Below are positions 45,681-55,979 of a stretch of DNA of 64,000 nt, in pieces. The position numbers and the translations under genes were made by a program. The number at the start of each line of letters is the position of its first letter. The stretch's first letter is position 1. Source of the DNA: Rhizobium sp. PDO1-076 (GTDB lineage Bacteria > Pseudomonadota > Alphaproteobacteria > Rhizobiales > Rhizobiaceae); assembly GCF_000247475.1 (NCBI RefSeq), contig NZ_AHZC01000419.1:1-64000 (forward strand), read 5' to 3'. A model generated the notes under the pieces. The model had not been told where the DNA came from. It saw only the letters and a program-made list of their open reading frames with translations, and ran no database searches.

Positions 45681-45842
45681 GGGGTTCCTCTCCGGCTTGC
45701 CTGCGTCAATCCGCAGTTGTTCGCTCATAGTGAGCGTATGGAGGCCATGATTTCAAGCCTTTGCTGATAGGCGACGGAGTCTCGGCCGCCGGGATAAATC
45801 GAAAGCGCCGATAGCGAGTCGCTGAAACTTCTGTCATGAATC

Positions 45843-53811: not shown

Positions 53812-54345
53812 TCAGCGGGCTGCCCTGCGACGTTCGCTTACCGGCTGGTAGGCCATCTTGGCATGATAGCCGCAATACGGCGACGCATCGTTGATTTCGC
53901 AACCGCAGAAGTGGAAGTCATCCTTCATCGGGTCGCCGATCGGCCACTTGCATGTGCGCTCGGTCAGTTCGGTCAATGCCAGGCGACGCGAAATGGGGAC
54001 CACGACATTCGACGGACGCGAAACTTCGGCTTCCTCGAAGATATCGACTTCGATCTCTTCCTTCAGCATGTTGCCGCCGGCCGCGCGGGTCACGGTACGG
54101 GTGGTTGTCGCGGTACGGCCCTGGAACGTGGTCGGGCGCTGTGTAGCCGGTGCCGGGCGCTTGGCCGGGCGGGCTGCCGAGGTGCTGCCGCCTGCCTTGG
54201 CGCGGCCCGGCAGGTTCAGCCGGTGTACCTTGCCGATGACGGCATTGCGGCTGACGCCGCCCAATTGCGCTGCGATCTGGCTCGCGCTCAGGCCTTCGGC
54301 CCAGAGGCGCTTTAGTCTCTCGACGCGTTCATCAGTCCAATTCAT
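53812..54345 (-). CDS. gcrA: Cell-cycle regulator GcrA
   Basis: The 177-residue protein has the GcrA N-terminal DNA-binding domain MNWTDERVERLKRLWAEGLSASQIAAQLGGVSRNAVIGKVHRL, a variable basic linker with APATQRPTTFQGR, and the C-terminal sigma-70-binding region with ERTCKWPIGDP and FHFCGCEI and YCGYHAKMAYQP. In alphaproteobacteria GcrA activates cell-cycle promoters carrying methylated GANTC sites. GGAGAA precedes the ATG. The region upstream has an unusual cluster of GANTC sites. Confidence 0.96.
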   Translation of the reverse strand: MNWTDERVERLKRLWAEGLSASQIAAQLGGVSRNAVIGKVHRLNLPGRAKAGGSTSAARPAKRPAPATQRPTTFQGRTATTTRTVTRAAGGNMLKEEIEVDIFEEAEVSRPSNVVVPISRRLALTELTERTCKWPIGDPMKDDFHFCGCEINDASPYCGYHAKMAYQPVSERRRAAR

Positions 54346-54492
54346 GCCGTATTTCTCCGCCGCTCGCGTGTATGATGGCAGAATCCCTCACCGTTGCTTC
54401 GAACGAATTCGAAACAAAAACCGCCTCGTTACTGTCGGTGACTATTTCCGCCGCATTGCTCAATTTATTGAATGTTAACCTACTGGTCGGGT

Positions 54493-54568
54493 GACTCTGT
54501 GACAAGAGTCGCGGGAATCATCTCGAATCGATTTCGCGGTTTTCCCCAACTTGCTTCCCGAGTGAGTC
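54493..54568. promoter_or_regulatory. Cluster of five GANTC (CcrM) methylation sites
   Basis: GACTC 54493, GAGTC 54506, GAATC 54515, GAATC 54525 and GAGTC 54564 lie in 76 bases, where about 0.3 would be expected in random sequence. The cluster is 150-225 bases upstream of gcrA and about 90 bases upstream of the argD promoter. Confidence 0.75.
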
Positions 54569-54658
54569 AAGTCTGCAACACTCCCAAACCGCGTCTGCGG
54601 CATGACGTCCGGTGCTCGCCGCAATCACTTGCAGACCCTCATTTTCCTGTAAGTTTCG

Positions 54659-54687
54659 TTGACATTGCAGGGTTAAATGGGGATAGT
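54659..54687 (+). promoter_or_regulatory. Predicted argD promoter
   Basis: TTGACA (54659-54664) and GATAGT (54682-54687) are 17 bases apart, about 95 bases before the argD start. Confidence 0.55.
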
Positions 54688-54782
54688 GCGTCCGCCGCCG
54701 CAAGGCGGCATTTTTAATTTTTGACCTGCCCACAGGCGTCTCCGCTGCCGCTGGACGCCGCCAATCAAGGATGACCAACGCC

Positions 54783-55979
54783 ATGGCCGAAGCGACGCCG
54801 CTTTATCAGACCTACAATCGAGCGCCTCTGCGTTTCGAGCGAGGCGAGGGCGTCTGGCTCATCACCGAGGGCGGCGATCGCTATCTCGATTTCGCCGCCG
54901 GCGTCGCCGTTAATTCGCTGGGGCACGCCCATCCGCATCTGGTCGAGGCGCTGAAGGCGCAGGCGGACAAGCTCTGGCATGTCTCCAATCTCTATGATGT
55001 GCCGGGCCAGGAAGCACTTGCCAAGCGCCTGACGGAGGCGACGTTTGCCGATCGGGTCTTCTTCACCAATTCCGGTGCCGAAGCGCTGGAATGCGCGATC
55101 AAGACCGCGCGCCGCTATCATTTCACCAAGGGCCATCCGGAGAAATTCCACATCATCACGATGGAAGGCGCCTTCCACGGCCGTACCATCGCGACGATCG
55201 CCGCCGGTGGCCAGGAAAAATATCTCGAAGGCTTCGGCCCCAAGGCCCCGGGCTTCGATCAGGTTCCGTTTGGCGATATCGACGCCGTCAAGGCGACCAT
55301 CTCCGATGCGACGGCGGCCATTCTTGTCGAGCCGGTTCAGGGCGAGGGCGGCATCCGCGCCATTGCCGTCGAGATGCTGCGCGAACTGCGCGCCATCTGC
55401 GACGAACATGATCTGCTGTTGATCCTCGACGAAGTGCAGTCAGGCGTCGGCCGCACCGGCAAGTTCTTCGCCCATGAATGGTCGGGCATTACGCCGGACA
55501 TCATGGCGGTGGCCAAGGGCATCGGCGGCGGCTTCCCACTCGGCGCCTGCCTCGCCACCGAAGAGGCCTCCATCGGCATGAAGGCCGGCACCCACGGCTC
55601 GACCTATGGCGGCAATCCGCTCGCCATGGCGGTCGGCAATGCCGTGCTCGATGTCGTGCTGGCCGATGGTTTCCTCGACCAGGTCCGCGATGTAGCACTC
55701 GTCTTCCGCCAGGGGCTGGCCTCGCTGCAGGATCGTTTCCCCGATGTCATCGCGGAAATCCGCGGCGAAGGCCTGATGCTGGGCATTAAGGCCAAGGGAC
55801 CGAATACCGAACTGCTGATGGCCATGCGCGACCAGCACCTTCTCGGAGTGCCGGCAGGCGACAACGTCATCCGGCTCCTTCCGCCGCTCGTGACGACGGC
55901 GGAAGAGGCGCGCGACGGCCTGCGTCGCATCGAGCTTGCCGCAGAGCAGGTTCGTCACAAGGCCGCAGCAATCGCTTGA
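54783..55979 (+). CDS. argD: Acetylornithine aminotransferase ArgD
   Basis: This PLP enzyme makes N-acetylornithine (and may act in DAP synthesis). I use ATG 54783 ([19 protein letters not shown]), 398 residues; ATG 54771 would add four. Family blocks: [58 protein letters not shown] and the PLP lysine in [15 protein letters not shown], then [20 protein letters not shown] lies upstream. argF follows after 24 bases, so the two form an operon behind a GANTC-rich promoter region. Confidence 0.96.

Follow-up and report, generated by a model that had tools for sequence, protein, structure and literature searches.

A strongly conserved GANTC array at the gcrA promoter of Rhizobium sp. PDO1-076 and its probable role as a methylation-sensitive, replication-timed switch

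The GANTC sites upstream of gcrA in Rhizobium sp. PDO1-076 form a genuine promoter array under strong conservation. This array probably acts as a methylation-sensitive core promoter of gcrA, timed by the passage of the replication fork. In the window, by which we mean the whole stretch of 64,000 nucleotides that was analysed, six GANTC sites lie between gcrA and argD (54381, 54493, 54506, 54515, 54525, and 54564); this site listing confirms the initial annotation, which had reported five sites within 54493-54568 and a sixth at 54381. The methylation-sensitive switch for gcrA that it had suggested also holds, with methylation as an OFF mark, in view of the fixed sites of the orthologs and the published behavior of the Agrobacterium tumefaciens gene (PMC11514494). 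As a probable replication-timed switch of gcrA, it is for the most part already known.

Read on the gcrA strand, one pair of GANTC sites brackets the -35 element as GACTC-TTGTCA-xx-GAGTC, and two more sites lie upstream (Table 1). The reported transcription start of Sinorhizobium meliloti gcrA is at -122 from the AUG, and the EcpR1 site follows it 13 nt downstream (PMC4414408). In Sinorhizobium saheli (L032), the first base of the -35 element is 158 bp from the ATG, i.e., 36 bp from a start at -122, and that of the EcpR1 element is 109 bp from the ATG, i.e., 13 from the same start. A -35-to-start distance of 36 bp is as expected for sigma-70, and the promoter placement agrees with the published S. 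meliloti start site. The start in the window was placed at about 54469 by carrying over the S. meliloti start and the -35 spacing of S. saheli.

Table 1. Features of the gcrA-argD region, in window coordinates, and of the EcpR1 gene found on another stretch of the genome (L193).
Feature	Position	Strand	Relative to gcrA start	Remarks
gcrA coding sequence	53812-54345	minus		PF07750, 201.7 bits; NCBIfam sig70cofacGcrA 151 bits, under its 280 cut-off
TCTGCC (putative pairing segment)	54377-54382	minus		can pair with Shine-Dalgarno GGCGGA (54356-54361) or leader GGCGGA (54447-54452)
Leader GATTC	54381-54385		about +85 to +89	five letters 36/36 each (chosen set); 78-81/81 per letter (wider alignment)
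Leader hairpin	54397-54414	minus		6/6 pairs changed on both sides
EcpR1 sRNA target ATGCGGCGGA	54447-54456	minus	about +14 to +23	complement of published EcpR1 loop (PMC4414408)
CtrA-like TTAA-N7-TAAA	54464-54478	minus	over start site	one mismatch to TTAA-N7-TTAA
gcrA transcription start (predicted)	54469	minus		36 bp from first T of -35; equal spacing between species assumed
Weak -10 element TAGGTT (putative)	54477-54482	minus		17-bp spacer; placed from sequence and alignment
GAGTC (gcrA strand)	54493-54497		-28 to -24, between -35 and -10	104/108 -35-anchored upstreams, all GAGTC
-35 element TTGTCA	54500-54505	minus		exact TTG[T/C]CA 140-200 bp upstream of ATG in 108/110 (without: L055, L073)
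GACTC (gcrA strand)	54506-54510		-41 to -37, abuts -35	102/108, all GACTC
GATTC (gcrA strand)	54515-54519		-50 to -46	exact offset in 72/108, GATTC in 71 of these
GATTC (gcrA strand)	54525-54529		-60 to -56	offset -24 or -23 from -35 in 92/108
Box CAAGTTGGGGAAAACC	54538-54553	minus		contains TTTTCCCCA on plus strand (54540-54548), a DnaA/W-box-like 9-mer
Fifth GANTC (GACTC on gcrA strand, GAGTC on plus)	54564-54568		-99 to -95	less conserved; offset -63 or -64 in 36/108
Likely argD promoter, TTGACA-17-GATAGT (putative)	54659-54687	plus		without GANTC
argD	54771-55979	plus		
EcpR1 sRNA gene	L193 1419-1531	minus		RF02500, 96.9 bits vs gathering score 60; exact published target loop

Conservation was followed in two samples of orthologs, which both favor close relatives and overlap in part (e.g., L003/L109, L010/L089, and L046/L103). 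One consists of the best 80 of 581 tblastn relatives, from named genomes, and the other of 29 relatives (30 loci obtained for 60 genomes, each of which had a match, with the window's own locus among the 30). Counts of exact words were preferred because an alignment in window coordinates hides insertions, e.g., one in L055. The GANTC-N8-GANTC pair, 13 bp apart and in the form GACTCTTG[T/C]CA..GAGTC, is present in 103 of the 110 gcrA upstreams, window included, and absent from seven (L044, L048, L050, L055, L066, L073, and L102). The initial annotation had proposed counting GANTC in orthologous gcrA upstream regions, and the excess is present there, at fixed positions. Within 400 bp upstream, the maximum per 76 bp is five in 34 of the 110 regions, four in 44, three in 17, two in 14, and zero in one; for the flanking DNA of the named loci the corresponding maximum is two or fewer in 78 of the 80, three in one, and four in one. 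There are 95 distinct 67-base cores among the 108 upstreams anchored at the -35 element.

The comparison was extended to 57 wider upstreams, from 22 of 24 other-family genomes of the same order, G117, and 34 of 75 further matching genomes, with lower-scoring and split matches left out; the remaining two of the 24 are counted among the 110 (L093, which has the pair, and L102, which does not). That the order is Rhizobiales was taken from the named relatives. In other Rhizobiales families the anchor GANTC-TTG is found in 7 of 23 genomes, all seven of which have a GANTC at +13, and it is missing in the other 16 and in all 34 other members of the class examined. The letter N of the +13 site is T in five of these seven, G in one, and A in one, and the letters between the sites differ. 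Because N and the intervening letters vary and the spacing is constant, it is the methylatable motif itself that is kept, not one fixed word. The arrangement of GANTC and -35 is conserved across rhizobia and is met again in some other families of the order.

The genome encodes a CcrM protein of 376 amino acids with a full-length match to NF050803 (628 bits), PF01555, and a RAMA domain; the NF050803 cut-off of 830 is reached by no tested genome, nor by the Caulobacter control. A full-length CcrM-like match was found in all 21 genomes tested, and on this basis a loss of the sites following loss of CcrM was rejected. As 13 of these genomes are without the GANTC pair and eight have it, CcrM does not predict the cluster. 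In A. tumefaciens, gcrA has six GANTC sites upstream, and CcrM methylation lowers its promoter both in A. tumefaciens and in Escherichia coli; the gene is 2.8-fold up on CcrM depletion and lower on CcrM overproduction, and its activation upon hemimethylation has been proposed (Martin et al. 2024, PMC11514494). The sections of that paper considered here describe no mutation of any single gcrA site.

We propose that CcrM would methylate the four GANTC sites between -60 and -24, which follow one another at intervals of 9-13 bp; two of them bracket the -35 element and two lie upstream. The upstream pair falls in the zone where the alpha C-terminal domains of RNA polymerase usually bind. With all of the sites fully methylated, sigma-70 RNA polymerase would bind poorly and gcrA expression would be low. 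Passage of the fork through the locus (which in relatives is roughly 0.4-0.85 Mb away from the hemE/origin region) would leave the sites hemimethylated and gcrA would rise, until remethylation by CcrM late in the cycle brought the rise to an end. Further timing would come from CtrA, over the start site, and possibly from DnaA, at the box with TTTTCCCCA, and EcpR1 would act later, on the leader. We infer that the effect depends on the sites flanking -35, that RNA polymerase reads the methylation, and that this timing applies in the present organism. With hemE, which we take to be a marker of the origin, the distance to gcrA is 0.41-0.85 Mb in 6 of 8 genomes (two assuming a circular contig and one outside the order), a comparison in which the window's draft genome and G015 were left out.

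A more specific version of this scheme, which we hold tentatively and with less than even confidence, is that RNA polymerase itself reads fork passage at gcrA. N6-methyladenine (m6A) beside the -35 element and in the upstream contact zone would weaken the binding of sigma-70 and alpha, with no methyl-reader protein, and the device would be ancestral in the Rhizobiales. The same region would hold the DnaA-like box, the CtrA-like site, and an EcpR1-driven leader, whose sRNA site and Shine-Dalgarno sequence would compete for a segment that overlaps the sixth GANTC.

Several other readings of the array have to be weighed. In Ensifer, GANTC is enriched about 2-fold in intergenic DNA (PMC8725594), as might suit a chance cluster in an AT-richer spacer. 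The window and 20 other stretches of the genome contain 437 sites in 433,420 bases, or 1.008 per kb, so that about 0.08 sites are expected in 76 bp; the 0.3 sites given in the initial annotation are the uniform expectation and stand as such, but are too many for the genome's own rate. Over the whole window GANTC is rarer than in dinucleotide shuffles (68 versus a mean of 338). Elsewhere in the 433 kb sampled, the maximum is three per 76 bp, seen at one place among the 20 stretches (L186 from 10901) and at one in the window (45777-45842). When the 425-bp intergenic region was put through 20,000 dinucleotide shuffles, none gave five sites in 76 bp, and 94 had six or more in total (mean 1.77). 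By a Poisson estimate, 0.006 such clusters would be expected in the whole 5.5 Mb at the genome's own GANTC rate; with the shuffled window's rate, which is much higher, the figures are about 18 per 5.5 Mb and 0.0014 for the 425 bp. A chance origin, to which we assign practically no probability, is refuted by conservation, i.e., by the retention of the pair in so many gcrA upstreams. Conservation could also reflect the site of another regulator, for example the dyad GACTC-N8-GAGTC, which merely contains GANTC. The N letters and the inverted repeat are near-invariant in Rhizobiaceae and near relatives (GACTC in 102/102 and GAGTC in 104/104), which is more than methylation alone would require and could, from the sequences, mean a protein site. 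However, other families keep GANTC and its spacing mostly without the dyad: their downstream site is GATTC in five cases, GAGTC in one, and GAATC in one, and the upstream site is once GAATC. Furthermore, the 12-mer GACTCTTGTCAC is unlike the operator of a regulon, since it occurs once in the genome, with two places at one mismatch. The dyad is therefore disfavored as an operator, and we consider a site of another regulator improbable.

A further candidate is GcrA itself, which together with sigma-70 on methylated sites might activate or repress its own promoter, as at its Caulobacter targets. One GANTC does lie between -35 and -10, and in Caulobacter promoters of this kind are switched on 40-60 min into the cycle (PMC4287350); in addition, the GcrA ChIP peaks of Brucella are rich in GANTC (PMC6813329). 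The extended GcrA motif has been given as YGAKTCK (PMC7987155). The GATTC at 54525 matches it in the window and, on the gcrA strand, in 41 of 92 upstreams, as does the next site (-50/-46) in 18 of 72 and the leader GANTC in 11 of 114. Against this reading, neither of the sites flanking -35 ever matches the motif (0 of 102 and 0 of 104 upstreams), the window site between -35 and -10 reading AGAGTCA. This test is not decisive, since no such extended motif was seen for Brevundimonas GcrA. The Agrobacterium promoter, moreover, is lowered by methylation in E. coli, where the GcrA family was not found (control list), and this effect in E. coli points to RNA polymerase, or to some other general factor, as the reader. 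GcrA may still act at the gcrA promoter, but we regard autoregulation as rather unlikely. Finally, the divergent arrangement and single intergenic region would allow one switch to time argD-argF as well, as the initial annotation had suggested. This shared control is unsupported and in our view very improbable, because argD has a likely promoter of its own, with a core free of GANTC, whose TTGACA (54659) starts 91 bp past the end of the cluster. In 62 of the 80 named loci, the neighbor genes of which were not checked one by one, a TTGACA was present at a suitable distance, and 57 of these 62 promoters likewise have no GANTC in the 60-bp argD-side promoter region. Neither argD nor argF is named in the main text of PMC11514494, supplements aside.

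Besides the methylation-sensitive core promoter, the region contains the box CAAGTTGGGGAAAACC, its most conserved piece, which is near-invariant over Rhizobiaceae and near relatives. The part TTGGGGAAAA is found by exact word in 107 of 110 upstreams and is present in 81 of 81 in each alignment column, and the 14-base core occurs once in the genome, with three places at one mismatch. Several other Rhizobiales families also have boxes resembling TGGGGAAAA, read by eye, at distances that vary. As a lead only, DnaA is a candidate for the protein that would bind this box. The 9-mer TTTTCCCCA differs from the DnaA box TTATCCACA by two mismatches, and the TCCCCA inside it is a weak DnaA site in Caulobacter (PMC4285127), whose gcrA is activated by DnaA and has one box in the promoter (PMC3193534). 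For S. meliloti gcrA, a DnaA motif was not predicted (PMC4414408); the invariant box could be the DnaA site that was missed in earlier motif searches. An NtrX site was rejected, as the S. meliloti gcrA site CAAACCTTG (PMC9223101) differs from the conserved box.

In this genome TTTTCCCCA is also present 175 bp upstream of hemE, near two TTATCCACA. The exact 9-mer is absent upstream of hemE in four other genomes examined, and its TCCCCA core is there in three. The segment at about 2678-3104 of L208, upstream of hemE, carries two TTATCCACA, one TTTTCCCCA, and close GANTC pairs, and is the probable chromosomal origin. With regard to CtrA, a motif overlapping the gcrA start has been described in S. 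meliloti (PMC3616915); visual inspection of the alignment rows read for Phyllobacterium and Mesorhizobium showed none resembling the CtrA-like site of the window.

The gcrA leader (54346-54469) carries elements of its own. The GCGGCGGA of the EcpR1 target is conserved in 35-36 of 36 per column (chosen set). The 12-mer of the EcpR1 loop is weak evidence alone, with one exact match and, at one mismatch or fewer, 74 matches versus 59 for a reversed control. The covariation score of the structure containing the leader hairpin was reached in none of 500 shuffles, and no known RNA family was found in 54200-54900, where the search gave one chance-level match. The bases beside the leader GATTC are conserved in 30/36 and 28/36 of a set of 36 chosen from 81. 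Pairing between TCTGCC and the Shine-Dalgarno sequence is possible in 84.3% of cells, with double changes in 3 of 6 pairs and failure of the outermost pair in 20 of 36; pairing with the GGCGGA of the EcpR1 target is possible in 92.6%, with zero double changes. It is possible that the EcpR1 site and the Shine-Dalgarno sequence could compete for TCTGCC and form an sRNA-driven translation switch, a model that suggests how sRNA binding far upstream could shut translation. Apparent start and stop variation suggested a leader micro-ORF of the form [A/G]TG CGG CGG A.C TA[G/A], which was rejected: many rows lack the short stop, at least four loci (L020, L021, L022, and L046) have AAG in place of the start, and the element is the EcpR1 site.

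The closest counterpart of this leader is the EcpR1-regulated gcrA leader of S. meliloti (PMC4414408), which likewise has the target just past the start, a long leader, and EcpR1 present. The competing pairing of the Shine-Dalgarno sequence is our proposal, whereas the passages of that study considered here leave the mechanism open. The GcrA-activated promoters of Caulobacter (e.g., ctrA P1) likewise have a GANTC between -35 and -10, here at 54493-54497, and are replication-timed. However, GcrA activates in Caulobacter, whereas the ortholog of the present promoter is lowered by methylation in the absence of GcrA and the sites beside -35 differ from YGAKTCK. In our searches of open-access literature, supplements aside, we did not find the fixed GANTC geometry, the invariant box with TTTTCCCCA, or the competition between EcpR1 and the Shine-Dalgarno sequence. 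The nearest known system is PG of A. tumefaciens (PMC11514494), an orthologous region which, as here, has six GANTC within 250 bp and CcrM in the genome. In the related A. larrymoorei (L022) the sites lie 32, 147, 160, 169, 179, and 218 bp upstream of the gcrA ATG, compared with 40, 152, 165, 174, 184, and 223 bp in the window. The methylation response was measured for the A. tumefaciens promoter, whereas for the window we infer it; no transcription start or fixed geometry is given in the sections of that paper considered here. The main effect, that methylation lowers the gcrA promoter, is already published for the Agrobacterium ortholog, and the present analysis turns it into a model that can be tested base by base, at specific adenines around -35.
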